Of a DNA stretch of 64,000 nucleotides, positions 20,637-64,000 are shown in pieces. Source of the stretch: Zopfochytrium polystomum (Eukaryota > Chytridiomycota > Chytridiomycetes > Chytridiales > Chytridiaceae); the NCBI GenBank assembly GCA_025765615.1, contig JAIVFJ010000326.1, positions 1-64,000 on the forward strand. The letters are read 5' to 3'. The notes beneath the pieces were generated by a model. It made no database searches. It saw nothing but the letters and a program-made list of their open reading frames with translations, and was not told the origin of the DNA. Each line of letters starts with the position of its first letter. The first letter of the stretch is position 1. Both the position numbers and the translations under genes were made by a program.

Positions 20637-21340
20637 GCTCTCACACGTAAACACTGGCGTGTTCTTGTCTCACAAAGTGGTATGTTGTTCGGGCCTCTCA
20701 GTCTTCAAATCAAGCAGTGGAAGTAAACCCAAAGCAATTGGCACCCTCTTCAAAGCAAGACAAAGGAAAAGTCCACGACTGCTTCTGCAAGCAGGGTAAG
20801 AAGAGCTGCTGTCCAAACGTATCTAACGTTTGCAGTTGGTGAAACCCGAAGAGTCAGTGCCAAAGTGGTCACTGGTTTTGCGAGAGTTTAGCGTCTGCAA
20901 GTGATATGGGAACTGAACCTAAGCCTGCAGTTAGAGATTTCTAACTGTGACCCAACCGCTGTCCTAAGCGGCGTATGGTTAAGCGATATCACTGTTATCC
21001 TAACTGGAAAAAGTTTGGCAGTGGAGCGTTGGCCGCACTTTGAGGCCTGCCTTGCGAGACCAGCATGACCTGGGTTTTCCCGCCATTGGACATTTTTCCG
21101 CAGGTTTTGGGGATACCCCCAAGCCGCACACCAAAAGTGAAAAGATTTCGTGGCCCACCCGGAGCGGAGTTGGTGCGTTTTTCTTTCCGCCCCGTGCGGT
21201 CTGTCTTCAAGCAGCGTAGTAAGGCCAGGCAGGCAGGCAGGCAGACAGACAGACAACCTCAAAGAAATCTTCCAGAAAAGGAGAGAAAGGAAGGGTTAGG
21301 AATGAAAACGGAAACAAAACAAAATAAAATACAAGTTCCA
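20637..21340. other. Intergenic region and 5' flank of the iron permease gene
   Basis: No recognisable gene. A short (GGCA)n/(GACA)n microsatellite lies at 21225-21256. The frame upstream of the chosen permease start is open back to 21065, so an earlier start is possible. Confidence 0.4.
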
Positions 21341-22895
21341 ATGATGGCGGGGGGTCGTCCAGCACGCCACCGCCGCCGAGAGCAGAGCTTTGTCGTTGTT
21401 TTCGGGCGGTGGTTCGCGGTAGCGGCGGCGGCAGCGGCGGCGGCGGCTGCTGCGGTTGCTGGGACAGGTGGGGCGGCGGAGGGACGTTTCGTGACCCTGT
21501 CCTCGGATCGTTCCTCCGCTCCCACCCCCGCCACTGCTCCAGCCGCTGCCTCCCACTCCCTCTCGTCCTGTATTTCTACTTCTTCCTCATCACCTCTGCT
21601 TGCCTCATTGTCGTCGACTGTGGTCGACAGCACTCGTTCGGAAACCTCTTCCAGTGCAGCTAATTCCGCTGCTTCTTCATTACCCTCTACCTCGGCGCTT
21701 TTCGCGCGATTCCTTCCCCCATTCGTCATTTGCTTCCGCGAGGCAATCGAAGGAGTCATTGTCGTTTCGCTCTTGCTTCATTTCATCAGTCACTCGCTTT
21801 CTCCAACGCCGCTTCTCGCGTCCGACTCCTTCGCCGACAAGCTCCTAATCTTGCGCCGGCGGCTGCAGCGCCACGTGTGGATTGGTGCGATCACCGGTCT
21901 CATTGGTACGCTGGCAGTCGCTGTTAGCGTTATAGCTGGCGTACGTGGAGTGGCCGTTTGGGTCAACGGCCAGTCTGGAGCGTGGGCTACGTTCGCGCTG
22001 GAGGTCTTCGCCGTTGTGTTCCAAACCTATCTAGCTGTCAAGTTTTTCAAAATGGCACGCGAACGTCGGGGTGTCCGCCGGAGGTCGCGCCCTGGCCCGT
22101 CACCGGAAAATCCGTGGCACGGAGATTCAGGAATCCATGCAGAGTGGCAGCAGTCGCTGGACTGGCATGTACAAGTCGAACGGGAGGACGCTCGAAAGGA
22201 CATTGAAGTCTCTAGGCGATTCCCGTTTGTCGGGGTCGCTGCCACTGTAGTTTTCCGTGAAGGCGTTGAAACGGTCGTGTTCCTGCTTGGGGTAAAGTCA
22301 CGTCGCTTTGGTGAACAATGCTCACATTTCCTCTGGCGTTCGGCCTCGGCTGTTCCTCGCTCAGATGACCACTCGGTCAGACGGGGCCTTTTCGTCTTTG
22401 ATTCTTCCGAGTCTTTGCGGAGTTCTGGTAGCGGTTGGCCTCGGCGTTGTGATCCATAACCGCAATCGGCTTTCAAGGAAAACAGATAGTCTCGACCTTT
22501 CACGGTTTTTTCGCGTCTCCGCTCTTCTCATGCTTATTCTATCGGCATCTCTTCTTTCCTCGACAGTCGGAGAGTTCCAGGAGTCACTGGAGAGCTCAGC
22601 CGACTTCGACCAAAGTCTGCTGTGGAATCTAAGCGAATGTTGCGACGAAGAGACGGGGCCCTGGATCTATCAGATTGCTGGGGCTCTACTGGGCTGGCGC
22701 GCCAAAATGAGTTGGGTGGTAGCAGGGCTGTTGTTGGCGTATTGGGTGGTGGTTGTTTGGATCGTTTGTGGCTCCTCAATTTCATCTATTCTGAGTTGGG
22801 CACGCGCGATAGCCTCGCCAAGCCGGCGCGTCTCCACAATACCACGCTGGCACCGTATCATCGACGCGGAAGCGGAGATGCTTCGCAAAGAGTGA
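21341..22895 (+). CDS. FTR1-family high-affinity iron permease
   Basis: Plasma-membrane Fe(III) permease of the OFeT family, which normally acts with a multicopper ferroxidase. Two REXXE-type iron motifs are visible: REAIEG in the first hydrophobic block (about 21738) and REGVE near 22260. They are followed by several further membrane segments (LIAxLPSLCGVLVAVGL type; SWVVAGLLLAYWVVVVW). Exons are 21341-22291 and 22365-22895. The 73-bp intron splits the coding region right after the second motif, in phase 0. From the ATG at 21341 the product is about 493 residues. The first 130 are Ala/Ser-rich low complexity and atypical; another in-frame ATG is at 21302. No ferroxidase gene lies in the window, although typical fungal loci pair the two. 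Confidence 0.8.
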
Positions 22896-22899
22896 ATAA

Positions 22900-24766
<1,867 letters not shown>

Positions 24767-31539: not shown

Positions 31540-31998
31540 CATGGAGTGCTTCATATCCAGTTGCTCTGCTGAGGGTTGCCCAGCTGACCCCTATTTATAG
31601 CAGGGTGCGGGAGGCAGTTGATAGGCAGAGGCACAGCCTCGAAGGCATCTCCAATGCCTGTGAGGCAAAGAGTACGGAGACGTTCAGGTGGTCCACCACT
31701 GGGAGATGGGAGACAATGACACCCTGTTGCATCACGCTGATGTGGCCAAAACTCCATGGAGTATGTGAGCAAAGAAGTGATAATGGCTCTGATTAATTCC
31801 TGTCGAATTGCTGGCGTAAAGCACAATGATGCGGTGTCTGGCCGGTGGATTGAAACCTCAGGAACCTTACCAAGCACTCGCACAGTGCGCTAATACCCAC
31901 AGAGGAGTAAGAACAGGTCAGAGAATCTTGAACAAAGAATTTCTGTCTTTTCGCCATATTTTGCATTTTCAGGATACTGAAATGAAAGGGAGGTAGGT
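31540..31998 (-). mobile_element. Diverged copia A-like LTR remnant
   Basis: Shares scattered words with the copia A LTR in the same order, including GCATCACGCTGATxTGGCCA, CTCCATGGAGT and CACTCGxACAGTG. Clearly older than copia A itself. The chromovirus inserted at its right end, duplicating TAGGT. Confidence 0.6.
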
Positions 31999-32306
31999 TG
32001 TTATGAATCACCCTCTGGAAACCTCTGGAACCTTCTAGAACATTCCTTCATGGAACCTTGTGGAACCTTCTGGAACCTTCTTTGCTTTCCTGACTTGTCT
32101 TGTTGTCATTGGTATCATTGGTATCATTGTATTACTAATTGCTCTTTCTGGAACTTTCTTGGAGTCTTGACAAGGAACACTCTCAAAAGGTATAAAAGGG
32201 GGATGGGGGACCTGTCCCATCCCTCAAGTGAATTATTGTTTCCAATACAATCATCACTCCTCTCAGTTCCTTGTCTGCCTTGTCCTGTCCTGCCCTGTTC
32301 CTGACA
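31999..32306 (+). repeat. Chromovirus 5' LTR
   Basis: 308 bp, starting TGTTATGAATC and ending CCTGACA. It contains a TATA-like box at 32191-32197 (TATAAAAGGGG). The R region probably starts at 32226, about 35 bases downstream. Confidence 0.95.
32191..32197 (+). promoter_or_regulatory. TATA box of chromovirus LTR
   Basis: TATAAAAG lies 35 bases upstream of the AAGTGAATTAT segment that is complementary to the primer site. This spacing makes 32226 a plausible transcription start. Confidence 0.7.
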
Positions 32307-32308
32307 TC

Positions 32309-32319
32309 ATAATTCACTT
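32309..32319 (+). other. Self-complementary primer binding site
   Basis: ATAATTCACTT lies two bases after the 5' LTR. It is the exact reverse complement of AAGTGAATTAT at 32226-32236 in the LTR, and the match stops after exactly 11 bases on both sides. Tf1 of fission yeast primes reverse transcription with the first 11 nt of its own RNA at the same place. No tRNA 3' end complement starting TGG is present here. Confidence 0.8.
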
Positions 32320-32346
32320 CACCCTCTCCCACTACTCTCTGCCATC

Positions 32347-33270
32347 ATGTCTGACCCAAACAACACCTTCCCTGATGCAACAGCCTTCCAAGCCTTGATG
32401 GACCAATTACAAGCCCTTTCAAGACAGACACACCAACTTCAAGAACAAGTCCTTCACCAGCAGCACCAGCTTCAACAACAACTTCACCAACAAGAACATC
32501 AAGCTCTTCCCCTGCCTCAAGCCAACCAAGCAAGAGAGCCCAAGGTTCCCAGCCCTGACAAGTTCACTGGGCTGGCCAAAGACCTTAGGAACTTCATGGC
32601 CACTGTGGAGAATGTCATCCTTCTCCAACCTTCAAGATTTCCCAGTGAGCAAGTCAAGGTTCTTTTCACAAGCACCCTCCTGTCTGGTCAAGCTCAATCA
32701 TGGTACAGATCTCTCCCAAGCACACCCACCACCCTGCAAGAGCTCTGGGAGGGGCTGGAAGCTACCTTTGGTGACCCCTACGCATCTTGGACAGCAAGAT
32801 CCAAGCTCAAGCATATCAAGCAAGGAAAGCAATCTTGTGTGGCCTACACCAACCAATTCAAGCAACTAGCCAGAGACTCTGGATACAATGATGCAGCTCT
32901 GATGGAGCTGTACCATGATGGTCTCCATGAGTCTATCCAAGACATGCTCTCCCAGTCTCTGCACATCCCTGAGACCTTGGAAGAGTACATTCTCCTTGCC
33001 ATCAAGATTGACAACAGACTCTACTCCAAGAGGCTGAAGCAAAGACAAGTAGGAACTACATCAAGACCTACCCCAGTTCCTCAAGCTCTTACAGTTCCTG
33101 AACCCATGCAAGTGGATGCAGTTGAGACACTTCCTAAGGGTCCTCTGAGCCAAGAGGAGAAAACAAGGAGGGCCCAGCAGGGACTGTGTTTTTACTGTGG
33201 CTCCAAGGAGCATGCTGTCAAGGACTGCCCAAGGAAGAAGCACCCAAACTCCCAGGTCCAGGCTCACTGA
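32347..33270 (+). CDS. Chromovirus Gag
   Basis: Capsid and nucleocapsid protein of 307 residues that packages the element RNA in virus-like particles. A Gln-rich, heptad-like N-terminus (about residues 14-62) precedes the retrotransposon gag core (SGQAQSWYRSL, then SYVAYTNQFKQLA-type helix). One CCHC zinc knuckle (CFYCGSKEHAVKDC) lies near the C-terminus. It ends 85 bases inside the pol frame, and Gag is the product made when the ribosome does not shift. The ATG follows a pyrimidine-rich leader. Confidence 0.93.
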   Translation: MSDPNNTFPDATAFQALMDQLQALSRQTHQLQEQVLHQQHQLQQQLHQQEHQALPLPQANQAREPKVPSPDKFTGLAKDLRNFMATVENVILLQPSRFPSEQVKVLFTSTLLSGQAQSWYRSLPSTPTTLQELWEGLEATFGDPYASWTARSKLKHIKQGKQSCVAYTNQFKQLARDSGYNDAALMELYHDGLHESIQDMLSQSLHIPETLEEYILLAIKIDNRLYSKRLKQRQVGTTSRPTPVPQALTVPEPMQVDAVETLPKGPLSQEEKTRRAQQGLCFYCGSKEHAVKDCPRKKHPNSQVQAH

Positions 33271-36200
33271 GGGGCAATTCCCTGGACCCTCCTCCAAGCT
33301 GCCCCTGTTTCATCACCACCACCAGCACCACAAACACCTCAGATTCCAAGCCCCACCAACTCACCATGGATGTCAAGATTCAACTCTCACCCAAGTCAAC
33401 CATCACAACCAAGGCCCTTATAGACTCTGGATCATCCTGCAACATCATTGATGCCACCCTTGCCAAGTCTTGTGCCATTCCTACGATCAAGAAATCCACA
33501 CCTCTCAAGGTCCACTTTGCCAATCATGCTCTGTTCAAGGAAATCAGCCATGAAACCAAGCTAAACCTCCACATCCAAGACTTTCCACCATCCATGGTCA
33601 ATCTGGAAGTATTGGATCTTGGCTCACCCACATTCTCTGTCATCCTGGGATTACCATGGCTGCAAGCCCAGAACCCTGCCATTGATTGGGTCACTGGTCA
33701 AGTCCAACCTCCACCAATTGGAACAGTCACCCAAAACTCAAGTCAAGCCCCCAAGTCTCATGCTCTCAAGCCCTTGATTCAAGATTCACAGCCAGCCAAG
33801 ACTCCAGTTCCACAGTTCACAGTTCACAGTCAAGATTCAAGTAGAGCTCATAGAGCTCACAGTCATGGCCATGACTCTTGTTCACAGAACCCACAGTCAA
33901 AGATTCAAGTACCACAGTTCACAGTCCACATTCAAGATTCAAGTTCCACAGCTCACAGTCTTTGCCAAGAACAGAACTCTCAGTCAAAGATTCAAGAATC
34001 ACAGTTCCCAGTCAAGATTTCAAGCCCCACTGCTGAGGAGCACGACAACCTGGACCCATCAGACCTTTTGCTGGCATCCAAGCTACCAAAAGAATATCTC
34101 CCTTATGCTGATGTGTTTTCCAAGACCAAGGCAGACCTGCTACCAGCTCAGAGGCCTTATGACTGTGAAATCCCACTCAAGGATGAAACTTGCAGCCCAC
34201 CTTTCAAGCCACTGTACCACCTCTCTCCACCAGAAGCCAAGGCCCTCCAAGAATACATTGAAGAAATGCTGAACAAGGGATTCATCCAACCTTCCAAGTC
34301 ACCAGCTGGAGCTCCCATCTTTTTTGTCAAGAAGAAGGATGGGGGACTGAGACCCTGTGTGGACTACAGAGATCTCAATGAGATGACAGTCAAGAACCGC
34401 TATCCACTGCCTCTCATCTCTGAATTACTGGACAAACTGAGCCATGCAAGGATATTTTCCAAGATTGACCTCAGAGGTGCCTACAATTTGGTCAGAATTA
34501 AGCCCCAGGATCAATGGAAGACTGCCTTCAGATGCAAATACGGTCACTTTGAGTACTTGGTTATGCCCTTTGGACTTACCAATGCTCCAGCTATTTTCCA
34601 AGGCATGATGAATGACATCTTCAGGGATATTCTGGACCTTTTTGTCATTGTCTACCTGGATGATATCCTGGTATTTTCATCTGACACTGCAAGCCATATG
34701 GGACATGTCAAGACTGTCTTGGAGAGACTCAGACAGCATCACCTCTATGCAAAGCTGGAGAAGTGTGAATTCCACAAGACCTCCATTGAGTTTTTGGGGT
34801 TCATTGTGTCTGACAAAGGGATCTCCATGGCACCAGACAAGATCCAAACTATTCTTGAATGGAAGGCTCCAAATTCCATCAAGGATGTTCAAAGCTTCCT
34901 TGGATTTTGCAACTTCTACAGAACCTTCATTGCCAACTATTCTGCCATAGCCAAGCCTCTCACTGATCTCACCAAGAAGACCACCAAGTTTGAATGGACC
35001 CCAGCAGCAGAGCAAGCCTGGCTAGCTCTTAAGACAGCAACCACAAGTGCACCACTCCTTAAGCATGTGGATCCCTTGCTTCCCTTCACCTTGGAAACTG
35101 ATGCCTCAGACTATGCCCTTGGCGCTGTTCTGTCCCAGCCAAGCTCTCAGGAACCCTCTGCTCCTCTGCATCCAGTGGCATATTACTCCAGGAAGCTGAA
35201 CAGTGCTGAGTGTAACTACACAGTCCATGACAAGGAGTTGCTTGCAATTGTGGAAGCATTCAAATTCTGGAGACACTACTTGGCTGGTTCTAAAGGCATC
35301 TCTGTCTATTCTGATCACAAGAACCTCACCTTCTTCAGGGCAAGGAGGTTGCTCAAGCAGAGGCATGCCAGGTGGGCTGAACTGCTCTCTGAGTATGACT
35401 TTAAGCTGTGCTATTCTCCTGGCCACCTTAACACTGTGGCTGATGCCCTGTCAAGAAGAACAGACCTTGCACCTGAAGGGGGAGATGGTTTCACCCCACC
35501 ATCCAAGACACACCTTTCATTGCTTCCTGACAGTGTGTGGGCCCATGCTATTTCCAAGGACCCCAAGCCTCACAAGATTCAAATCAGCCAAGAAGAGGAA
35601 AAACTTGAGATACTCAAGACAAGGCATGATGCAGCAACAGCTGGACACCCAGGAGAGCACAAGACATATGAGCTTGTTTCCAGAGACTTCTACTGGCCAG
35701 GCATGAGGAAGTACATCAAGAACTATGTCAGCAGCTGTGAAACCTGTCAAAGAAACAAATCCAGCAGACACAAGCCCTATGGACTTCTGGAGCCCCTCCC
35801 AATTGCCATCAGCCCTTGGTCATCAATATCCATGGACTTCATTGTGAAACTGCCCCCATCCCATGGATTTGACTCTATCCTTGTTGTCATCTGCAGAAGG
35901 ACAAAGTTGGCCCATTTCATCCCCTGCACTGAGAATATAGATGCACAAGGAACAGCAGACCTGTTTTTGCAGCACATATTCAGGCTCCATGGGCTGCCTC
36001 AGTCAATCGTCAGTGACAGAGGACCACAGTTCAGATCTCAATTTTGGAAAGCACTCACAGCAGCCCTTGGAATCAAGTCTCAACTGTCAACTGCTTATCA
36101 CCCTCAGACTGATGGACAAACAGAAAGAACAAACCAGACTCTGGAGCAGTATTTGAGGTGCTATGTCAGCTATCAACAGGATGATTGGCCCACCCTCCTT

Positions 36201-36905
36201 CCACTGGCAGAATTTGCTCTCAACAATTCTCTCCACTCAAGCACCCAGCTATCTCCTTTCTTTGCAACCTATGGCTTCAATCCAAGAGGAGATCTTCTAG
36301 GACAAGAGACCCTATCCAATGTCCAAGCTCCTGCTGCGGCTTCACACTTACATAAGCTCAAGATCATCAGCACCTTCCTGGACTCCACCCTGAAGCAAGC
36401 CCAAGAAGATGCCTCAAGATTTGCCAACACTCACAGAATGGACCATGACCTTGCTGTGGGTCAGCAAGTTTGGCTTCTGAGGAAGAACTTGCAGACCAAA
36501 AGACCAAGTCCCAAGCTAGACAACCTCAAGTTGGGTCCTTTCAAGATCTTGGAGCAAATCAATCCAGTCACCTTCAAGCTGGATCTCCCTGCATCCATGA
36601 AGATCCACCCAGTTTTCCATGTCAGCCTTTTAGAGAAGTTTGTGGCCAATTCCATTCCAGGCAGAGTTGTTCCTCCTCCTCCTCCAGTTGAGGTAGAAGG
36701 TGAAGAGGAATTTGAGGTTGAACAAATCTTGGATGCCAAGTGGTTTGGAAGAACACTCAAGTTCCTTGTTAAGTGGAAAGGTTACTCAGATGCTGACAAC
36801 ACCTGGGAGCCTGAGTCAAACCTCACTCACTGCCAAGACCTTCTGCTCGAGTTCAAGACCAGGTACCCCACCAAGTTGCAGAAGAGGCCTAAAAGGGGGA
36901 GATGA
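33186..36905 (+). CDS. Chromovirus Pol (protease, RT, RNase H, integrase, chromodomain)
   Basis: The open frame is 1239 codons. The true product is probably a Gag-Pol fusion made by -1 slippage at 33243, not initiation at the ATG at 33186. Domains in order: aspartic protease (ALIDSGSSCNIID); reverse transcriptase (ALxxYLDDILVFS, with the YLDD active site near 34660); RNase H (TLETDASDYALGAVLS); and integrase with an HHCC zinc finger (GHPGEHKTYELV, CETCQRNK) and a D,D-35-E core (SDRGPQFRS; AYHPQTDGQTERTNQ). The C-terminal chromodomain (EVEQILDAKW; KWKGYSDADNTWEPESNL) binds modified histone H3 in related elements and steers integration. The stop codon TGA (36903-36905) directly abuts the 3' LTR. 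Confidence 0.95.
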   Translation: MFLLWLQGACCQGLPKEEAPKLPGPGSLRGNSLDPPPSCPCFITTTSTTNTSDSKPHQLTMDVKIQLSPKSTITTKALIDSGSSCNIIDATLAKSCAIPTIKKSTPLKVHFANHALFKEISHETKLNLHIQDFPPSMVNLEVLDLGSPTFSVILGLPWLQAQNPAIDWVTGQVQPPPIGTVTQNSSQAPKSHALKPLIQDSQPAKTPVPQFTVHSQDSSRAHRAHSHGHDSCSQNPQSKIQVPQFTVHIQDSSSTAHSLCQEQNSQSKIQESQFPVKISSPTAEEHDNLDPSDLLLASKLPKEYLPYADVFSKTKADLLPAQRPYDCEIPLKDETCSPPFKPLYHLSPPEAKALQEYIEEMLNKGFIQPSKSPAGAPIFFVKKKDGGLRPCVDYRDLNEMTVKNRYPLPLISELLDKLSHARIFSKIDLRGAYNLVRIKPQDQWKTAFRCKYGHFEYLVMPFGLTNAPAIFQGMMNDIFRDILDLFVIVYLDDILVFSSDTASHMGHVKTVLERLRQHHLYAKLEKCEFHKTSIEFLGFIVSDKGISMAPDKIQTILEWKAPNSIKDVQSFLGFCNFYRTFIANYSAIAKPLTDLTKKTTKFEWTPAAEQAWLALKTATTSAPLLKHVDPLLPFTLETDASDYALGAVLSQPSSQEPSAPLHPVAYYSRKLNSAECNYTVHDKELLAIVEAFKFWRHYLAGSKGISVYSDHKNLTFFRARRLLKQRHARWAELLSEYDFKLCYSPGHLNTVADALSRRTDLAPEGGDGFTPPSKTHLSLLPDSVWAHAISKDPKPHKIQISQEEEKLEILKTRHDAATAGHPGEHKTYELVSRDFYWPGMRKYIKNYVSSCETCQRNKSSRHKPYGLLEPLPIAISPWSSISMDFIVKLPPSHGFDSILVVICRRTKLAHFIPCTENIDAQGTADLFLQHIFRLHGLPQSIVSDRGPQFRSQFWKALTAALGIKSQLSTAYHPQTDGQTERTNQTLEQYLRCYVSYQQDDWPTLLPLAEFALNNSLHSSTQLSPFFATYGFNPRGDLLGQETLSNVQAPAAASHLHKLKIISTFLDSTLKQAQEDASRFANTHRMDHDLAVGQQVWLLRKNLQTKRPSPKLDNLKLGPFKILEQINPVTFKLDLPASMKIHPVFHVSLLEKFVANSIPGRVVPPPPPVEVEGEEEFEVEQILDAKWFGRTLKFLVKWKGYSDADNTWEPESNLTHCQDLLLEFKTRYPTKLQKRPKRGR
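33243..33288 (+). promoter_or_regulatory. -1 ribosomal frameshift signal (gag-pol)
   Basis: The heptamer C CCA AAC at 33243-33249 is in gag frame and fits X XXY YYZ. Slippage gives CCC AAA in the pol frame. After a 5-nt spacer, GGTCCAGG (33255-33262) can pair perfectly with CCTGGACC (33281-33288), an 8-bp GC-rich stem with an 18-nt loop. Heptamer, spacer and stem all lie in the only place where both frames are open. Confidence 0.75.
36888..36902 (+). other. Polypurine tract of chromovirus
   Basis: AAAAGGGGGAGA just before the stop codon and the 3' LTR is the expected primer for plus-strand DNA synthesis. It is encoded within the last pol codons. Confidence 0.8.
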
Positions 36906-37213
36906 TGTTATGAATCACCCTCTGGAAACCTCTGGAACCTTCTAGAACATTCCTTCATGGAACCTTGTGGAACCTTCTGGAACCTTCTTTGCTTTCCTGA
37001 CTTGTCTTGTTGTCATTGGTATCATTGGTATCATTGCATTACTAATTGCTCTTTCTGGAACTTTCTTGGAGTCTTGACAAGGAACACTCTCAAAAGGTAT
37101 AAAAGGGGGATGGGGGACCTGTCCCATCCCTCAAGTGAATTATTGTTTCCAATACAATCATCACTCCTCTCAGTTCCTTGTCTGCCTTGTCCTGTCCTGC
37201 CCTGTTCCTGACA
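36906..37213 (+). repeat. Chromovirus 3' LTR
   Basis: 308 bp, one visible base different from the 5' LTR (attgTatt versus attgCatt), followed by the TAGGT target duplication. Confidence 0.95.
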
Positions 37214-37218
37214 TAGGT

Positions 37219-37950
37219 CAAACACAGAAGAATTCAAGTGAAGACTGAAATGGAAAGGGTTGTCTGGCTGTCTTATGGTTATCTCTCTCCCTCTCTCTCT
37301 GTTCATTTTCATTTATTCTTGATAACAGTTGAGCTCTAACACTTTTGAAAAATTTTTCTTACTTTGATCCGAAACATTTGTGAATAGTTTTACAGTTTGG
37401 AAAGGAAAACTTCACTCTCAACCCTGTTGGCTATGGACCAATTACTCTTAAACTTTCTAACAGCATCGCCTTGCGAATCTCCTTACCTCTATTTACAAGT
37501 AAAGTGGCATCCCCTAGTCGATACCAAAGTAATAACTGGCGAAAGCAGGAAACCCTGTTTTCCACTAGTGATTGGCGGAGGGGGTTTATTTTTTGAATGT
37601 TGGTGGGAAGCCATCCTTGTCAGAAAGTAGCATCCTTTTGTTTGTCTTCTTTCTTTTTTTTTTCAAATTTCTCACGAGAAAACGACAAAAACAAGCCCCC
37701 TGTCAGGTCCCCAATCAAATCAGGCTTTGTTTGGGGCTGGTTCAGTCAACCACCAATCAACTGGTGCGAGTTTCTCACACTCACCTTTTTTGGTATTGTC
37801 TTCCGCATTCCTCTGTCCCCATGGACTGCCAAGTTTCCCATCGTTTTTGCAAGACAGCCGACCGACAGACAAGTGACCTGCCTTGCCACCCTCGCCTTGC
37901 TTCTTGTGGGTGGAGGATTTTTTTTGGTGGCGAAGGATACATTGACTACT
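37219..37950. other. Upstream region of the P450-lipoxygenase gene
   Basis: Non-coding, with a CTCTCTCT microsatellite near 37286 and a T run near 37650. No gene is recognised. The chromovirus sits 740 bp upstream of the TATA box. Confidence 0.45.
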
Positions 37951-37957
37951 ATATAAA
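37951..37957 (+). promoter_or_regulatory. TATA box of the P450-lipoxygenase gene
   Basis: CTATATAAAGGGGCGG fits a strong TATA element about 145 bases upstream of the ATG at 38098. A start about 30 bases downstream would give a leader of roughly 110 nt. Confidence 0.6.
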
Positions 37958-38097: not shown

Positions 38098-39533
38098 ATG
38101 AGCACTTACGCGTCGGCGACGGACCATCACGTCGTAATCCATGCAGTCAGCCCCCCAAAAAACGTCAGCCCTGGATACTTCCAGGTCGCACTTGCTGTAG
38201 TTGCTACGATTCTCATAGCCCCCGCTTTGATTGTCACTATTCCAATCGATGCGCTCTCGTTCTACCTGTTTAAAACGATGCCCTTCCTGAATTTGTGGAA
38301 TGCATTCAGAGTCTGGCAAATCAGGCACCATCCCGACTCCACTCTGCTCTCGGCCGTAACAGACTCCCTTGGATTTTACGATTTCCTTGATCTTGTCGTC
38401 CTCAGTGGTGGTGAAAGAAGCGTTATTTTCGCAAAGCGCATGAAGAACGATGGAGGTTTCTGTTTTGTCATGTTCCGTGGTTTTTGGTTATCGAAACATG
38501 CGGACGTCGCGAAACTGCTCACTGGTCCCCAGAACCGCTCGAATCTCATTGGTACTTGGCAAATGGAAGTTCCTTTAGTGATGAGCCCGATTTCCCCTAT
38601 ACTCTTATCGAACCCATCTGACGCGCACAGTGCTGTTCGCGGTCTCCTGACGGGCGGGACCGTGGGGAGCGAAGACGCGCAATCACGGTTGAAGAATGCG
38701 TCGAGCGTCCTCGCGCCTATCGTGAAAGAATGGCTTACGTACAAGAAGCCCCTCGATGGGGATTTCCTGGCTAAGATCGTCTTTCGTTGTATCATGAAGC
38801 TTCTCTTTGATTCCGAGCCAACGGAGGATATTTTGAAAAGCGTGTCCAAGTATAGGCTGGTAATTGAACTGACTTTGTACCTTCCCTCTTGGCTAACGGT
38901 AAAAGCAGCTCACAACAGGAGTTCTCGTCCCGCGCTTCGCTCACGCCTTCACTGGATATGCAATCGCCAAAGGTTTAAAGAAAGCATCGCACTATTGTAT
39001 CCCACTCGCTGCCTCTTCGTGCCGACACTCAGTTTGTTTCGAAAGCTGCGGATGTTGGGATTATCAGTGACGATGCTTGCGACACAGTGACGGATCTGCT
39101 CCTCTTTGCCGGAGTTATTGGTACTTCACACTTGGTCAACGACGTGTGTAAGCGACTAGATGAGAACAAAGCGGAAAGGGTGCCGTTGTACCGCGAAAAT
39201 CCCTCAAACTTCATCTACGAATGCTCGCGACTGAATCCACCAGTCACTTCTTTCACCACCTTGTGCTCAAGGCCCACGGTAGTTGAATACCATGGACGCG
39301 AAATGGAGATACCTGCTGGAACCCCAGTAGCCGGTTGTTTGAGCAATGCCAATATCGACCCAGCCTGCTGGGGCGAGGATGCTAAAGAGTTTAATACTCA
39401 CCGTGATTACTCGAAGCTCGTTACTTGGAATGGCTTGCTGTCCACTGGTCCTCGAATTTGTCCCGGCTTTGACTTGTCCAAAACAATCGCCCTCGAGCTC
39501 TCCTCGGCTTATGCGGGCTGCGTAAACGTATGA
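38098..39533 (+). CDS. Cytochrome P450 domain (CYP74-like), N-terminal part of a P450-PLAT-lipoxygenase locus
   Basis: Heme-thiolate domain. The ATG at 38098 is followed by a hydrophobic segment (about residues 28-55), so it may be membrane-bound. The C-terminal half has the K-helix ExxR (ECSR, 39219-39230), the segment NIDPACWGEDAKEFN, and the heme loop GPRICPG with Cys at 39459. The DLLLFAGVIGTSHLVND stretch aligns by position with the I-helix of hydroperoxide-metabolising CYP74 enzymes. It lacks the usual acidic-Thr oxygen-activation pair, as expected for enzymes that use a hydroperoxide instead of O2. Likely introns are 38862-38920 (GTAATT donor, CTAAC branch, CAG acceptor) and 38974-39033. 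The heme-end frame reaches a stop at 39531, one frame away from the lipoxygenase that continues at once. CYP74-like is an inference; P450 is firm. Confidence 0.75.
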
Positions 39534-41624
39534 AATCACAATCTTCACTGGTGCCTCTGGCGATGCCTCGAGCGATTCAGATGCTGTACTGAAAATATTC
39601 GGAACGAAGGGCAACACGGCGGAATTGCAATGGCCAAAAAATGACAAACACAAAAGAGGCGAGATCGAATGTTTCTCCTTTCCTCGACAAATCGACGTTG
39701 GAGAAGTATTGAGTGTGTCATTCTGGCGGAAGGAGGAGGACTTGATTGACTTCAGTCCGAACTGGTTCGTCGACAAGCTGGAGGTGACGAAAATTGGCGA
39801 CGGCCCCAGCAAGACTTTCAAATTTCCATTTTACAGTTGGGTTCCAACTACCCCAATCACAGTATTCGAAGGGCGAGCGTCTACGGTAACGCAAGTAGAA
39901 GAGAGCACGACTAGATTCCAGATCCGCGCGAAATATTTGAAAGAGAAGCAGAAGGAATATTCCTTTGTTACGCATCACAAAGATCTAGGGGAATGGGGGT
40001 CCACATTGCCAACGGCCACACAGCTAGATGCACGTGGTGACATTCCTTTAGCCGAAAAACCACTGAAAGAGGAGAAAGATGACTTCAGTATTTCTGTGAA
40101 GGATGCGATCGCCAATGCGGGATTCAGCTATGTGTCGCATGTGGCCGCGAAAACACTTGATGAATACGTCGCCAACACGGCCATTCCAAACCTCATCCAG
40201 GAAAAGCAAGATGTTCGACTTCCCGACAGACCGGGATGGCGAACCGACGTTTCCTTTGGAAATATGATGATTGCGGGAATGAATCCGGTTCAGCTGAAAG
40301 TTGCGACCGAGATCCCCCCCGATTTCGCTGTTACGGATGCCATGCTCCCTCAAGGGCGCACTCTCGCCACAGAGCTGCAAAACAAGCGCCTGTTTACGCT
40401 CGATGACGACTTCCTTGTGTCCATGGCTGGAAAGCACATAGTTGGTGATGAAACCCGGTACCTAGCGGTCCCATTTAGCTTGTTCCACGCTGATGCCGCT
40501 GCCGGACTCAAACTCCTGCCGATTGCTATTCAAATCGACAGGAAGAGAGGCTGTCCCGTATTCACTCCAAAGGACGACCCGTGGGATTGGTTTGCTGCAA
40601 GACTGTAAGTGCTTCTTTAAATTTCGTGCTGGTAGTAAACGGCCGTTTCAGCTTCCTTTTGAATTGTCACTTCCAAATTCACCAATTTCGCGCTCACGCT
40701 CTGTGGTGCCACTTGATGCAAGAGCCCGTGTCAATATCTCTAAATCGCATGCTGCCTCCTTGTCACCCGATATATAAATTGCTGCGACCGCATTTTCGTG
40801 GCTTGGCCTCTATTAACGCCAAAGCCCGCGGGTCCTTAGTTGCCTCTGCTGACCGGCAGTCTCTGTATTCCAAACAAGGTGACGTGATGACAGTTGGCGC
40901 AACTGGAAATATCAAGGTCGCCCAGCTGGCATACGCAAAGAACACTTATGAGGGAATTTTCTTCCGCAACCGGCTTCGAGAGACCGGTATCCTGGACGAT
41001 ATAGCTATTGGTGACCACCCATACCGCGACGACGGCTTATTGCTTCTCGAAAGCATCGAAAAATACGTTTGCAAAATTGTTGACATATATTATCCCACAG
41101 ATGCCTCAGTTGCAGCTGATATTGAGCTGCAAGCTTGGGCGCGCGACGTTGTTACTGAGGGAAAAGTAGTCGGATTCCCTGGAAACGGCGCCATAACGTC
41201 GAAAGACATGCTTTCGTATATTTGTTCCAACATCATATTCATCGGCGCTGCCTTCCACGGAGCAGTCAACTTCGCTCAAATCGTGTTCGCTGGAAACGTT
41301 GCAAACATGCCTGGATCGTTATTGGCACCTCCTCCCACCGAGAAAGGAAAACTGACAGAAAAAGATATTCTTGCGATGCTCCCGTCCCACGGTGCGGCCC
41401 TTATTCAGATTGGATTGCTCATGATTTTGTCCACGAACTCGACGGAAAGGCTGGGGCACATCCCGCAGGAGCTCTTCGTTGATGAAGCAGCGTTGAAAGC
41501 TCAGAAAGAGTGGAGAGAGGATTTGGAAAATGTCGAAAAAACCATTCAGATGAGAAATTTGGGACGGGCTGAGACATACAATGGATTCTTGCCCTCTGTC
41601 ACCCCGAACTCGACTGCGATCTAG
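39530..41624 (+). CDS. PLAT domain plus iron lipoxygenase, C-terminal part of the same locus
   Basis: Dioxygenase that makes fatty-acid hydroperoxides. The frame opens directly at the P450 end with a PLAT/LH2 beta-sandwich (YEITIFTGASGD; KIFGTKGNTAELQWP), which binds membranes. The catalytic domain begins near 39850. Iron-ligand motifs are present: His-x4-His in HQFRAHALWCH (His at 40680 and 40695), HGAVN (His 41256, Asn 41268), and a terminal Ile (PNSTAI). A 47-bp intron (40605-40651, GTAAGT donor) joins FAARL to the helix with the first ligands. The PLAT-lipoxygenase part is about 680 residues, the normal size. Most described fungal lipoxygenases lack PLAT, so this is closer in layout to animal, plant and oomycete forms. 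It has no start codon of its own at the junction, so a fusion with the P450 is the simplest reading. Confidence 0.85.
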
Positions 41625-54092: not shown

Positions 54093-55337
54093 TGATGAAA
54101 TCCCACCCAGGACTGGAGGGACTTGGTGTGTGTGGGGATGAAGAGAGAGAGAGAGAGAGAGAGAGCAGTGATGATGGAAAAGGGAGAGGAGTGAGAGGAT
54201 GTAGAGAGGAGAGAGGAGTGAGTGGGCAGAGATGGAAGAGAGAGCAAATGGAGGAAGAGAGATTGGCTTGTTTTGCACTGGATTCTGTTAAAGCAGCAAG
54301 GAGGGGGTTGGATTCCTTGTTTGATCTCTGTGAGAGGTTGTTGCTTTTATACTCCTGCAGGTTGGAGCCATCAGAAAACAGAGGGAGAAGTGGGCTGCAC
54401 AGAGCAGGCCACAGAAATGAGGTAAAACAGGCTGAGCACCAACCCCCAGCCTGGGCTAAGTACCCATTCAGGGCTGAGTACCACCCAGGGCTGGGCATCA
54501 CTCAGGGCTGAGCACCAGCCAGGGCTAAGTACCAGCCTGGGCTGAGCACCACCCAGGGCTGAGTACCAGCCTGGGCTGTGCACCACCTAGGGCTAAGTAC
54601 CAGCCAGGGCTGAGTACCACCTTGGGCTGAGCACTTTGTCTGGGCTGAGTACCACCAGGAACCAATTTACAGCTTGTTTGAGAAACAGTTGCTTGTAAAT
54701 TGGTTTGGTTGTTTCCAAATCAGGAAGCTTGTTTGGGAAACAAGCCGCTTTTTTTCCTTGTTTTTAGAAATCCAATGATTGGTGCAATCTCTGGTGAGCT
54801 CAGCTTTTATCTCGCTTTTAGAAATGCAGTGATTGGTGCAATCCCTGATTCCTAAATGCCTGTTGCATTGCTCAGATTGCCACAGCACAGCAGGAAAGCT
54901 GGAATTCCAGATCAGGAAGCGGAATTCCAGTGCAGAGAGAGGAATTCCAGATCAGGAAGCGGAATTCCGATGCAGAGTGCGGAATTCCGGTGCAGAGAGC
55001 GGAATTCCGATGCAGAGAGCGGAATTTCGGAGCATTGCGCAGTGGTACACTGCTTCTGCATGCTTGCTGTGCTGTGTTACGTGTGCAGAGTGCGTAGTTT
55101 GAGTGTTTTTGTGCATGTTCTAATTGCATTGTTCCTACCGGTAGGATGAACAAAGCTAGAACAACAGCCGCCTTTGCCTATCTCTTTTTATTGAGAACAG
55201 ATTAGCCCTTCCGAGCGCCCCATTCAAGTATTGAATCTACTGAGCCCTTCAAACACCCCATCCAATGTGATTGGATGGAGTTCTCAAAGGGATCATCAGT
55301 AACGGGCGTAGTGTACCCCGTGGGTCGAATCTCAACA
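54093..55337 (-). repeat. LTR-C, 3' LTR of copia D copy 1
   Basis: 1245 bp from TGATGAAATCCC to GAATCTCAACA. It contains a GA microsatellite (54147-54166), a TATA-like box in minus sense (54341-54350), degenerate GGGCTGAGTACCACC tandem repeats (54430-54660) and a 20-bp GGAATTCCGATGCAGAGAGC tandem array (54898-55027). Confidence 0.85.
54898..55027. repeat. 20-bp tandem array in LTR-C
   Basis: About seven units of GGAATTCCgatGCAGAGAGC with small changes. Similar arrays at 59478-59600 and, shorter, at 47178-47245 show copy-number differences between LTR-C copies. Confidence 0.85.
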
Positions 55338-58300
55338 CACCCCCGCAATAGAAAGAGAGGGGGCAACTGTTTCTCCTGGAGTACATGGCTGTCCAACAAT
55401 GCCAGCCAAGCAGTGGGACTCGAACCCACCCATGCACTCCCCTACACTTGTGAAAACCTGCATGAACCCACAAGTGTAGCTGGAGAAGCCAGAGAGAGCC
55501 TTTAGACTAAGCGTTGTGCTGATTTGAGCGTGGGCACCACGCTTACACCTTGGAGGTCGGCGAGACTGCAAATTCCCATCAGTGATGCAAGCTTTGCATG
55601 TTGAGCTGCGGGAAGAGCTTTGGTGAGAAGGTCAGGCAATCATCATGTCCGTTGGGCAATGAATGAGTTGAACCTCCTTTTTCTCCAAGTGGTCCCGTAT
55701 GAAATGCAACCTCACGTCAAAGTGTTTGACCCGACCATGGTGTATTGGATTCATAGCAATAGCTATGGTTGAACGATTGTCTTCAAAAACAGTAGTGGGC
55801 TTATTTAAATCCATACCCAGCTCCTGGAAGAGCATTCGTAGCCAGATTGCCTCTTTGATGGCCTCAGTAAGGGAGAAGTATTCCGCCTCAGTTGAGGACA
55901 AAGCGACAACTGATTGTTTCTTGCTGTACCATGTAATAGCACCCCCCGCAAAGCATGAACACATGCCCTGACCTCGACTTGCGTCCGTCCTCTTCAGCAT
56001 AGCTGGCATCAGCGTAGCCATGTGGTTCATCCCACTCTGGGTAAGAAATACCCGCAGCTTTCTCTACCTCTGGGAGCGTTGCATTGGTGATGCATGTCAT
56101 CTGGGAGTCTCCCTTTTGGTAGAAAAGTCCATGATCCCAGGTAGCGCGGACATATCGCAGCAATCTGTCAAGCGCAAGGGAATCTGAATGGGTTGGAGTG
56201 GACTGGTATTGTGCAAGTGTATTCACAGCATACGCAATGTCAGGGCGCGTCAAGTTTGCAAGGTAAGCAAGTTGCATGAGTGTGCTTCGGAAGTATTCCG
56301 ACTCTTTTTGTGGAAGTTTTCCAGAGTCCACATCGTGCATCCATGTCGTGGACATGGGAGTTGCTTTGATTTTGACAGGTAAGCCTTCATCGTCACACCA
56401 GTAGTTTGCTTCCTCCAAGACATGCTGTGTGTAGTTTTTCTGTCCAATAAAGATTCCATCTTTGATTTTCTCAACTTGGATTCCAACAGCAACTTTTGGG
56501 TTGAGGTCCTCGCGGATTTTGAACTTTGATTTGATCAGAGAAAGAATTTTGGCAATTTCTTCTTCAGTGTGACTGAAGATGAGGATGTCATCTACGTATA
56601 GAGTGATGATGGTCTTGACCTTTCCATCAGGGTGCCTTTGCACAAAGACACAGTGGTCAGTCTTCAATTGCGTAAATCCAATTTCCACTAGGAAGTCGCG
56701 GATTGTTTTGTACCACTGTCGACCAGACTGGTGCAGTCCGTACAGACTCTTCCTGAGTAAACAGACAAGAAGTATCCCGTCTGCACCACTTATCTCAAAG
56801 CCTTCTGGTTGTTCCATGAAGTTTTCAATGTCCAGTTTGGCGTTCAAGTATGCGGTTTCGACATCAAGGCCTGCAAGTATGAGGTCAAACAGCAACGAGA
56901 TAGCAAGGATTGCCCTTATGGAGGAGCTGCGGACGACAGGGGAGAAGGTCTCATTGTAGTCCTGACCAAAGATCTGAGTGTAACCCCGACCAACAAGGCG
57001 AGCCTTGAAGCGTTCAAGGTACCCTTCACTGTCAAACTTGTAGGCAAAAACCCATTTGGGCTTGAGTATCTTACGCCCTTTAGGTCGAGCCACTAAGTCC
57101 CAGACATGCTTTGATGTGATCGAATTGATCTCTGAGAGTTGAGCTGCCTTCCAATACTTTGCAAAAGGAGAACGCATGGCCTCTTTATGTGAAGCAGGGA
57201 GTGGTGGTAAGTCCCGCTGGTGGATCCTTTCTGTTGGATATGCTGTGACTTCCTCCGGCTCAAGCACAGTGTATGCTTTGAGCGTTTGGTAGAGTTCACG
57301 AAATTGTCCCCGTGCTATCCGTAGTTTACGAATTCTTGCAGTTAAAGCGCGGAGTGTTTTCCGACTGTAAGTGGAAGGACTTGTGGCAATTGATGGTTTT
57401 GTTCGTAGTTTACAAAGGTTTGCCTTCAATGCCAGGTAGTCACGTAAACCTGATGGCTCTCGTGGTATGATTGGGGGATTTGTTGCCTCCCCTGTTGACT
57501 CTGGCAAAGCTAGAATGTCAGGGGAAGTTGAGCGCTCCCTTGGAGGGATTTCCTGTTCATCAGGTATTGACTCTGGTTCAGAATCAGAAGCGTCGTATAG
57601 CATACCCGGCTGTAGATCTCCCCCCTGTGATTCTGCAGGTGGTACATCGTCTTCTTGTGAGTCAAACAGAGCGTCAGGATGTGCCACATCTGGATCAGTG
57701 GACATAGCGGGGGTATGCAACGAGGAGGAAAGATATTGGAAATCCTGAGCTGTGGGTTGGACTGGTCCCCATTCCTTCAAGCGGGAGTCATGAAGGAACT
57801 GTCTCCAGTTCCGCACAATGCCAGGAAAAACATTTTCGTGAAAGGAGACATGGAAGTGTTCCGATATTCTCTGAGTTTTCAAGTCGTAGACTACTGGAAG
57901 AGTGTTTCCTTTATACCCTAAGAATATGCCTGGCGCCCCTTTGTCAGGATGTTTAAGCGTTCGCTTTTCCTTTGGGATACGGTGGATAACCAAACAGCCA
58001 AAGGTGCGGATGTGATCAACATTTGGCTTTTCACCGTACCAAGCTTCATAAGGTGTTTTCTTAGTGTAAGAGTGGTAAACCCTGTTCTTGATGTATGCTG
58101 CGTAGCGGACTGCATACACAAAGAAAGAGTGGGGCAATCGTGACTCTAAGAGCATGCAGTGTGCCATGTCTTTGAGAGTGTTGACCTGACGTTCTACCAG
58201 CCCATTGAATTCCTTGGTGAATGCAGGACTAGGTTCTAAAACAATAGGAGGATGCCGAGTATTGGCCCAAGTTTTGAATTCTCCATCTTTGAAGATTTCC

Positions 58301-58665
58301 CCCCTGTCACAGCGCACAGATGTGATATGTTTGCCATGTTGTTGTTCAAACCTTTCGATCGTAGACCGGAATCTTGTGGGCGCGTCGGACAAAGAGTTGA
58401 GGAACTCAATGTCAAGCCAAGCGGGTTGACTCTTCCACAACCAGTTGCCAATGTTTTTCACCATGGTGTCCACGTGCGGGCAGTGGGACAGCATCAGTGT
58501 GTAAACGACCAAGCAGTGTGGTGTTTGGTCTGGAAGTGGAGTGGATAGGCGAAGCTTTCAATTTCCCAACATCACATGTCACGCAGGGAATGTCATGAAT
58601 GAGGAAAAAATGAATGACCAACTTTATTCAGATTTGACCAAGTACGCTTCAAAGAAGATAAAGAC
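55338..58665 (-). mobile_element. Copia D copy 1, partial (integrase to RNase H)
   Basis: The minus strand encodes the integrase core (LVERQVNTLKDMAHCMLLES), reverse transcriptase (RFKARLVGRGYTQ; LYVDDILIFSH) and RNase H (HGYADASYAEE; SSTEAEYFSL) in one long 874-codon frame, 58512-55888. One-base insertions in a C run (about 55945) and at 55633 break the RNase H end, so the tail lies in another frame. At 58665 the element is interrupted by LTR-C, within the GAG-pre-integrase segment that is complete in copy 2 (KKFGHLSLSSLKRTWSN). Protease and gag of this copy are not seen in the window. Confidence 0.9.
55413..55479 (-). other. tRNA T-arm-like element and hairpin near the copia D 3' end
   Basis: GTGGGACTCGAACCCAC (55413-55429) is a perfect tRNA T-arm: 5-bp stem, 7-nt loop and B box GGTTCGAGTCC on the minus strand. 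Just upstream in element sense, CTACACTTGTG (55442-55452) and CACAAGTGTAG (55469-55479) form a perfect 11-bp hairpin. The pair lies between the pol stop and the 3' LTR. Both parts are conserved at 59973-60039 in copy 2. Confidence 0.55.
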
Positions 58666-59897
58666 TGATGAAATCCCACCCAGGACTGGAGGGACTTGGT
58701 GTGTGGGTATGAAGAGAGAGAGAGAGAGAGAGAGAACAGTGATGATGGAAAAGGGAGAGGAGTGAGAGAATAGAGAGAGGAGAGAGGAGTGAGTGGGCAG
58801 AGATGGAAGAGAGAGCAAATGGAGGAAGAGAGATTGGCTTGTTTTGCACTGGATTCTGTCAAAGCAGCAAGGAGGGGGTTGGATTCCTTTTTTTTTTTTT
58901 TTTGATCTCTGTGAGAGGTTGCTGCTTTTATACTCCTGCAGGTTGGAGCCATCAGAAAACAGAGGGAGCAGTGGGCTGCACAGAGCAGGCCACAGAAATG
59001 AGATAAAACAGGCTGAGCACAAATCCCCAGCCTGGGCTAAGTACCCATTCAGGGCTGAGTACCACCCAGTGCTGGGCATCACTCAGGGCTGGATACCAGC
59101 CAGGGCTAAGTACCAGCCTGGGCTGAGCACCACCCAGGGCTGAGTACCAGCCTGGGCTGTGCACCACCCAGGGCTAAGTACCAGCCAGGGCTGAGTACCA
59201 CCTTGGGCTGAGCACTTTGTCTGGGCTGAGTACCACCAGGAACCAATTTACAGCTTGTTTGAGAAACAGTTGCTTGTAAATTGGTTTGGTTGTTTCCAAA
59301 TCAGGAAGCTTGTTTGGGAAACAAGCCGCTTTTTCCTTGTTTTTAGAAATCCAATGATTGGTGCAATCTCTGGTGAGCTCAGTTTTTATCTCACTTTTAG
59401 AAATGCAGTGATTGGTGCAATCACTGATTCCTAAATGCCTGTTGCATTGCTCAGATTGCACAGCACAGCAGGAAAGCTGGAATTCCAGATCAGGAAGCGG
59501 AATTCCGGTGCAGAGAGAGGAATTCCAGATCAGGAAGCGGAATTCCGATGCAAAAGGGGCGGAATTCCGGTGCAGAGAGCGGAATTCCGGAGCCTGGGGC
59601 AGTGGTACACTGCTTCTGCATGCTTGCTGTGCTGTGTTACATGTGCAGAGTGCGTAGTTTGCGCGTTTTTGTGCATGTTCTAATTGCATTGTTCCTACCG
59701 GTAGGATGAACAAAGCTAGAACAACAGCCGCCTTTGCCTATCTCTTTTTATTGAGAACAGATTAGCCCTTCCGAGCGCCCCATTCAAGTATTGAATCTAC
59801 TGAGCCCTTCAAACACCCCATCCAATGTGATTGGATGGAGTACTCAAAGGGATCATCAGTAACGGGCGTAGTGTACCCCGTGGGTCGAATCTCAACA
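58666..59897 (-). repeat. LTR-C, 3' LTR of copia D copy 2
   Basis: 1232 bp with the same ends as the copy at 54093-55337 and high similarity. An A/T-rich difference (a T run at 58889-58903) and fewer 20-bp units distinguish it. It begins inside the internal part of copy 1, so copy 2 seems to be inserted in copy 1. The left target sequence would be AAGAC (58661-58665); the right flank is outside the window. Confidence 0.8.
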
Positions 59898-62800: not shown

Positions 62801-64000
62801 ACAATAGGAGGATGCCGAGTATTGGCCCAAGTTTTGAATTCTCCATCTTTGAAGATTTCCCCCCCTGTCACAGCGCACAGATGTGATATGTTTGCCATGT
62901 TGTTGTTCAAACCTTTCGATCGTAGACCGGAATCTTGTGGGCGCGTCGGACAAAGAGTTGAGGAACTCAATGTCAAGCCAGCGGGTTGACTCTTCCACAA
63001 CCAGTTGCCAATGTTTTTCACCATGGTGTCCACGTGCGGGCAGTGGGACAGCATCAGTGTGTAAACGACCAAGCAGTGTGGTGTTTGGTCTGGAAGTGGA
63101 GTGGATAGGCGAAGCTTTCAATTTCCCAACATCACATGTCACGCAGGGAATGTCATGAATGAGGAAAAAATGAATTACCAACTTTATTCAGATTTGACCA
63201 AGTACGCTTCAAAGAAGATAAAGACAGGTGACCAAATTTCTTGTGAAGAGCTCGGACTGCTTCAATGTTCTGAGGGTTTGGTAAAGGGTCTGGGTCAGTT
63301 TGACTTAAAGTTGGGGTTGCAGTTTGCAAAGGAGCAGTTTGCTGTTGCGACTCACCTGGGGCGTCCCCCGAAGGAGTCGGGCGCGTCCCTTCCAAGTTCT
63401 GCCCTGTCGAGACCAGTATGTCCCGTCAGAAGAGAAGGGTCCACAACATAGACATTCCCTGTGTCCCTGTGAGCAATGGTAAAGTCTGAACCATGTACCC
63501 GAGGATGCAATAGGGCTGTGGTCTGCTGTGAAAGTCACGTTGTGACCTGTCTGCCGCACGATTTGCTGAACCGAGAGTAGAGTGTCTGAGAACTCTGGCA
63601 CATGAGCGAGTTCCTCATGATGAGAGCTCTTCCGTTAACGAACAGGGTGAAGTCGCCCACCCAGTGGCAGGTTGAAAGCCGTCAGCTGTTTGATCTGCTG
63701 GGAGGTGGCCGCAAGTTTGTGAAGTGCTCTTCACAAGGCGACATTGTCCTGGGATAGCCCCAGAGTCAAGGATGACCTGGTGTGGGTTGCCCTGCCAGCA
63801 AGTCTTGCCATCAGCGCAGTCTCGTAGATGCGGCGGTAGGTGATGTTTGCGGTAGAGGAAGCGCCCAGATTCGTACATCACTTGTAGCACGACTTTTGAG
63901 AAATGTGTCAGTGATCCAGTCTGGATCCATTCATTCTGCCGTCAGAAGTGTAACTGTGAGTTCCCTCAAATTCCTCCTCCACCTCAACGGCCTGGCATGT
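59898..64000 (-). mobile_element. Copia D copy 2, running off the window
   Basis: The minus strand carries the same pol as copy 1, reaching further upstream: the GAG-pre-integrase motif (63240), protease (VILDSGA near 63770) and a zinc-binding-like segment. The pol stop is at 60062. At least six small insertions or deletions relative to copy 1 break the frame, near 60865, 61040, 61968, 62035, 62420 and 62862. Most lie in homopolymer runs. Gag and the 5' LTR lie beyond 64000. Confidence 0.88.
59973..60039 (-). other. Second copy of the T-arm-like element and hairpin
   Basis: The same 17-base T-arm palindrome and 11-bp hairpin as at 55413-55479, unchanged, although nearby bases differ between the two copies. 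Confidence 0.55.

Follow-up and report, generated by a model that had tools for sequence, protein, structure and literature searches.

A candidate two-step oxylipin synthase in the chytrid Zopfochytrium polystomum, combining a cytochrome P450 with a PLAT-lipoxygenase

To our knowledge, single-chain oxylipin synthases that both make a hydroperoxide and convert it are known in two forms. A Chem. Rev. survey of octadecanoids mentions both, the fusions of catalase relatives with lipoxygenases (LOX) and those of heme dioxygenases with cytochromes P450 (P450), and the accessible part of that survey names no chytrid. In the second form, the fungal dioxygenase-P450 fusions (DOX-CYP), a dioxygenase and a self-sufficient P450 share one chain and a hydroperoxide is the intermediate (PMC13049297, accessible text). 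Here we describe a locus of the chytrid Zopfochytrium polystomum in which a P450, a PLAT domain and a LOX follow one another on the forward strand (38098..41624) of a 64,000-nucleotide stretch of contig JAIVFJ010000326.1, referred to below as the window. On the basis of sequence comparison, we estimate a probability of about 0.72 that this gene encodes, or until recently encoded in this copy, a single protein acting as a two-step oxylipin synthase. By analogy, the best reading is of a bifunctional enzyme that would operate as the coral allene oxide synthase-lipoxygenase does, with a P450 taking the place of the catalase-like domain.

The adjacency of P450, PLAT and LOX is real and conserved. 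All parts of the gene lie on the + strand. Exon 1 (38098..38859, 254 codons) aligns with the N-terminal P450 halves of four related proteins introduced below (P0001-P0004) and carries an N-terminal hydrophobic stretch, VALAVVATILIAPALIVTI, at residue 30. It is followed by an inferred 49-nt intron (38860-38908; GTAATT...GCTAAC...AAGCAG, with GCTAAC resembling a branch site), by exon 2 as far as a first +1 frame jump (38909..38984), and by the C-terminal half of the P450 (38985..39528), which is identified by Pfam and by its motifs. These comprise the I-helix LLLFAGVIGTSHL (39096-39134), the ExxR motif ECSR (39219-39230), PPV (39237-39245) and a GxRxCxG-type heme motif, GPRICPG (39447-39467), with its Cys codon at 39459-39461. 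The Pfam match to PF00067 is confined to the C-terminal half and lies just above the cut-off (22.9 bits versus 22.8; piece 39087-39533); searched by itself, the piece 38098-39090 gives no Pfam hit, and the N-terminal half is seen by alignment with the relatives. The PLAT/LH2 domain (39529..39846; PF01477, 58.2 bits, residues 1-106) directly precedes the LOX (PF00305), whose first part (39847..40604) scores 17.5 bits, below the cut-off of 23.6, and whose second part (40652..41624, stop codon 41622-41624) scores 147 bits. Between the two LOX parts lies a second inferred intron of 47 nt (40605-40651; GTAAGT...TTTCAG), removal of which yields WFAARLFLLNCHFQIHQ and a gap-free alignment with the relatives; a third intron, of 52 nt, is inferred in an EF1-alpha gene of the window. 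The LOX is complete for its metal ligands, found in HQFRAH, HGAVN and NSTAI: three His (40680-40682, 40695-40697 and 41256-41258), Asn (41268-41270) and the C-terminal Ile (41619-41621).

At the P450/PLAT junction a second +1 frame jump is present (39519..39533, the jump itself at about 39519-39530), where a TGA (39531-39533) closes the P450 frame and a TAA (39523-39525) lies in that of PLAT. The two frames are therefore unjoined in the raw DNA, as would be seen if two neighbouring genes had been misread as one. However, the first ATG in the PLAT-LOX frame is at 40264, 246 codons in and well within the LOX, and the TATA box matched by pattern upstream of the P450 (TATATAAA, 37950..37957, 148 nt 5' of the ATG at 38098) is followed by no further TATA pattern between 37950 and 40771, and so by none at the junction, indicating that the LOX is not built for a separate start. 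Moreover, five relatives carry the fusion as a single protein, and the spacing between the heme Cys and PLAT, which is 22 codons and one further nucleotide in the window, is likewise 22 residues in P0001 and P0002. We accordingly reject two separate genes, an explanation that we regard as very improbable.

The relatives were found by searching proteins with the joined reading of the window, with X placed at the jumps (E <= 1e-3, 8000 candidates scored). Four proteins of 29-63% identity were returned: P0001 from Nowakowskiella sp. JEL0078 (partial; 63% identity over 85%), P0002 from Nowakowskiella sp. JEL0407 (1102 aa; 49% over 93%), P0003 (35% over 82%) and P0004 (29% over 96%). Pfam finds PLAT and LOX in all four, and the closest relatives are those from Nowakowskiella (Chytridiomycota, Cladochytriales). 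On sequence alone we would place the source of the window close to Nowakowskiella among the chytrids. In a second search, a segment of the P0003 LOX served as the query (E <= 1e-10) and gave 15 proteins, including P0002, P0003 and P0004, a further P450-PLAT-LOX fusion of 1064 aa (P0006), a 622-aa protein without the P450 part that is 64% identical to P0003 over the searched part (P0005), and ten other LOX proteins (P0007-P0016). Pfam gives no P450 match for P0006; scored with the P450 profile, however, the opening 321 residues reach 29.8 bits, compared with a maximum of 5.1 in 1000 shuffles, and ETIR and GTRMCPA occupy the aligned ExxR and heme positions. The P450-PLAT-LOX order is thus present in six proteins (window, P0001-P0004 and P0006), and its recurrence in five besides the window led us to reject chance adjacency. 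Since P0001 was missed by the second search, such searches overlook true relatives and the fusion is at least as widespread as observed here. A wider protein search with alignment A1 returned P0002 alone. Two short patterns were used in each contig search, and absence is not proven by either: among prokaryote contigs 154 pattern matches (alignment A1) and among viral contigs 41 (alignment A2) gave no confirmed case.

In a LOX tree of 17 rows, the window, the five other fusions and P0005 form one clade with support of 100/100. Within it P0001 is the nearest neighbour of the window (96/93) and P0002 comes next (100/100); support at the deeper forks is lower (88/83 and 87/91). Of the ten rows outside this clade, two are presumed catalase-like fusions and four sit on long branches; none is a named animal reference. 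The single clade and its nesting fit one fusion event followed by descent. Two of the proteins outside the clade, P0009 and P0010 (889 and 893 aa), have long N-termini, presumably resembling a catalase-related domain, for which Pfam named no family; their LOX domains group together (100/99). P0012 is a 587-aa lipoxygenase whose source attributes it to a Leptospiraceae metagenome-assembled genome.

These comparisons bear on what had been proposed in a sequence-only reading of the locus. One fused gene of P450 and LOX parts is borne out by the same order in five other proteins, and the adjacency, whose absence from related genomes had been named as grounds for refutation, is present there, including in two Nowakowskiella proteins. 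The claim that the P450 runs straight into the PLAT-LOX holds for domains, coordinates, strand and the lack of a LOX start or TATA pattern at the junction. It does not hold for the raw frames, which are broken: the unbroken reading that it implied had missed two introns and two +1 frame jumps.

Directly observed in support of a two-step synthase are the order of the domains and its retention across six proteins, the ligands of metal and heme, and an oxygen motif without its acid. The heme Cys, the ExxR motif and the Arg that follows are the same in every fusion protein, and all six lack the acid of the I-helix oxygen-activating acid-threonine pair, in agreement with the earlier observation that this P450 has no obvious pair. 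We propose that the C-terminal PLAT-lipoxygenase would bind the membrane and add oxygen to a polyunsaturated fatty acid, and that the resulting hydroperoxide would then be transferred from the LOX to the P450 site within one molecule. The LOX may have S stereochemistry, as suggested by the Ala of INAKARG (40824-40826), which we take to be the Coffa-Brash site, assuming the rule that Ala there gives S. The N-terminal P450 would be self-sufficient, requiring neither O2 nor a reductase; it would cleave the O-O bond of the hydroperoxide at its heme and rearrange the product to an allene oxide, epoxyalcohol, diol or aldehyde, probably a signal or defence compound. Alternatively, the P450 could work as an ordinary monooxygenase, dependent on O2 and a reductase, and hydroxylate the fatty acid or the LOX product. 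The heme loop of the window and P0001-P0003 has the canonical length and would suit such an enzyme, as would the nearest PDB matches of the P450 profile and of P0004, most of which are presumably monooxygenases. The absence of the oxygen-activating acid from all six proteins, the physical fusion to a source of hydroperoxide, and the lack of any reductase domain in the Pfam results for the window pieces, P0001-P0004 and P0006 argue against this alternative, making it improbable.

A hydroperoxide-using, CYP74-like enzyme had been suggested for this P450, and two features of the CYP74 clan are missing from it. CYP74 enzymes have an I-helix Asn and a nine-residue insertion at the heme domain (PMC8124189, accessible text). 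The Asn is replaced by Gly in the window and P0001-P0004 when aligned by eye with the allene oxide synthase (AOS) motif quoted in the accessible part of PMC13049297, and the AGGASVP stretch of P0006 also has no Asn. In place of the nine-residue insertion, the window, P0001-P0004 and P0006 have a short loop, which in P0004 is three residues shorter; the AOS match, by comparison, extends over 106 residues for 95 profile positions. An ERR triad (E315, R318 and R376 in P0002 numbering) is invariant in the aligned fusion proteins, and PPV occurs in 5/5 aligned rows, with VPV in P0006. Both are weak CYP74 markers, as the triad is common to most P450s and PPV is found in other P450s too. Matches to known P450s by sequence are weak. 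The best PDB match of the window P450 is CYP74A, which is not significant (E 0.042 over 66 residues), and CYP74A is ranked 21 (E 3.4e-4) when PDB is compared with a five-row P450 profile, where it is presumably the first non-bacterial entry after entries that we take to be bacterial. P0004 alone ranks first what appear to us to be bacterial-type P450s, and the P450 part of P0006 gives no credible kinship match by sequence. Across NCBIfam models for the five P450 domains, the first row falls far below the cut-offs, and the best values among the other rows are E 2.7e-10 (CYP119) and 6.9e-10 (P450_cycloAA_1), each family appearing in only 1-2 of the five rows. Judged by its sequence, the fusion P450 is divergent. 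We do not file it under CYP74: on the two missing features membership of that clan is rejected, and the earlier CYP74-like assignment is not supported.

Several observations weigh against a working two-step synthase, the first group of which concerns the P450 part. The first PLAT strand follows the heme Cys after 22-28 residues in five fusion proteins and after 82 in the sixth, P0006, whereas P450s usually have about 50 or more residues after the Cys and end in strands that line the pocket. The final P450 strands are therefore either lost or replaced by PLAT, and the short segment could mean that the P450 is non-catalytic. In Pfam, only P0004 and the piece 39087-39533 of the window reach the P450 cut-off; the matches of P0001 and P0002 are too weak for it, and P0003, like P0006 and the N-terminal window piece, has no P450 match. 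Structure models add little here: that of P0004 (16 alignment rows; mean predicted local distance difference test score, pLDDT, 67.0) is confident in the LOX and not in the P450, and that of P0002 (4 rows; mean pLDDT 39.6) was not used. The best 50 of 1166 Foldseek matches and 50 of 1000 chains by VIA-align are all LOX, which has no bearing on the P450 part. The short segment after the Cys and the weak or missing Pfam matches would suit an N-terminal domain that binds heme or serves as structure, positioning or regulating the LOX, as would the shortened heme loop of P0004 and a conservation somewhat below that of the LOX, and a precedent exists in Aspergillus 10R-DOX-1, whose P450-like partner lacks the heme-thiolate ligand (PMC13049297, accessible text). 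Against a non-catalytic role stand the heme Cys, ExxR and following Arg retained by every fusion protein, and the equal conservation of the two parts between the window and P0001 (P450 66%, LOX 66%). We judge this explanation unlikely, though less so than that of an ordinary monooxygenase.

The second group of adverse observations concerns the state of this copy, in which the P450 reading in the raw DNA is broken by a +1 jump at about 38976-38984 in addition to the one at the junction, while the alignment shows that the relatives read through both places. Restoration of the frame was tested with one- or two-intron GT/GC-AG solutions scored against P0001. At the first jump, 929 intron solutions (32 single, 897 double) scored at most 863, the best being a 19-nt GC-AG intron, versus 889 for the frame-jump reading; at the junction there were 33 single-intron solutions, 22 of them retaining the heme motif, the best of which scored 408 versus 483. 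Every solution scored lower than the frame-jump reading, and none accounts for either jump as well. The 49-nt intron 38860-38908 belongs to the best solution, and the 47-nt intron is separate.

That no intron solution fits the two +1 jumps equally well would suit a formerly working fusion, now a pseudogene in this genome, broken by two jumps in a retroelement-rich region, with a Ty3-type element directly upstream and copia-like open reading frames (ORFs) downstream. In addition, the EF1-alpha gene (459 codons) and the Ty3-type ORF (1255 codons) are unbroken, indicating that sequence errors are not everywhere. On the other hand, about 3.4 kb of coding sequence is free of any other stop and all catalytic residues are retained. 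Moreover, a near-identical copia-type pair in the window differs, beside 35 substitutions, by indels of only 1 nt (10 of them), which leaves room for assembly error, although decay of the elements could give the same pattern. We consider a pseudogene a substantial possibility, somewhat short of even odds, and this particular gene copy is possibly broken. Such a reading for this copy is compatible with, and does not exclude, a bifunctional enzyme in the intact relatives.

The surroundings of the gene are as follows. The Ty3-type long terminal repeat retrotransposon (31985-37191, + strand) encodes protease, reverse transcriptase, RNase H, integrase and a chromodomain in its single ORF and has 300-nt end repeats that are 98% identical. 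The copia-type pair (54999-58671 and 59559-63231, - strand), aligned over 3668 bases, has one member with an 889-codon ORF and the other in several frames. EF1-alpha (23335-24766, + strand, one intron), a useful marker for placing the organism, has as its best PDB matches 1f60, presumably the yeast protein, and 5o8w. Just upstream of it lies an FTR1-type iron permease in two frames that are probably joined by an intron (21044-22895, + strand). An enoyl-CoA hydratase/isomerase-family gene piece (1565-2059, - strand; ECH_2, 61.9 bits) apparently continues in other frames.

Returning to the proposed two-step synthase, the architecture is undescribed as far as our searches go, in line with what the sequence-only reading had noted: among the matches listed, neither a description of a P450-LOX fusion nor a paper with the two strain names was found in the open-access literature, including the accessible parts of PMC10813956, PMC8124189, PMC11719350 and PMC13049297. 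If the proposal is true, the P450-LOX would be a third form of single-chain synthase, the pairing would have evolved repeatedly with unrelated heme partners, and chytrids would own a complete lipoxygenase pathway within one protein. It would also allow the splitting of O-O bonds to be examined in a P450 that does not have the CYP74 asparagine, and the intact natural Nowakowskiella relatives can be expressed directly.

Comparison with the known systems places the fusion apart from each. The coral allene oxide synthase-8R-lipoxygenase (Plexaura homomalla, PDB 3dy5) and the cyanobacterial catalase-LOX proteins have an N-terminal catalase relative, whereas here the N-terminal domain is a P450 with a Cys ligand; with P450 motifs present and no catalase domain by Pfam in the window, P0001-P0004 and P0006, membership of the catalase-related-LOX group is rejected. 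The DOX-CYP enzymes (Ppo enzymes, linoleate diol synthases, DOX-AOS and DOX-epoxyalcohol synthase (EAS)) are likewise fungal and likewise join a dioxygenase to a P450 in one chain, but there a cyclooxygenase-like heme dioxygenase comes first and here a non-heme lipoxygenase comes last. The DOX-CYP P450s have the heme motif HxCxG (PMC13049297, accessible text), in contrast to RxCPG in the fusion proteins and RxCPA in P0004 and P0006, and with no HxCxG and no cyclooxygenase-like Pfam domain in the window pieces, P0001-P0004 and P0006, membership of the Ppo/linoleate diol synthase group is also rejected. The CYP74 clan (plant and animal AOS, hydroperoxide lyase, divinyl ether synthase and EAS) resembles the fusion P450 in its ERR triad, its PPV and its use of a LOX hydroperoxide as substrate, the last being a proposal for the fusion P450, yet consists of separate proteins with the I-helix Asn and heme insertion that the fusion P450 does not have. 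The animal-type lipoxygenases (5-LOX, 11R-LOX and 8R-LOX) share with the window LOX the PLAT domain, the metal ligands and the C-terminal Ile (E about 3e-76); unlike them, the window LOX is fused to a P450, and with its fused counterparts it falls into a separate clade of the 17-row tree, which included no named animal enzyme. We tentatively suggest, at close to even odds, that these proteins represent a third independent invention of a self-contained dioxygenase-hemoprotein oxylipin synthase, in which a non-CYP74 P450 was fused before a PLAT-LOX prior to the split of the chytrids from the lineages of P0003, P0004 and P0006, and in which the PLAT sandwich, beginning at the place of the last P450 strands in five of the six proteins, may help to seal off the P450 pocket and to channel the hydroperoxide.

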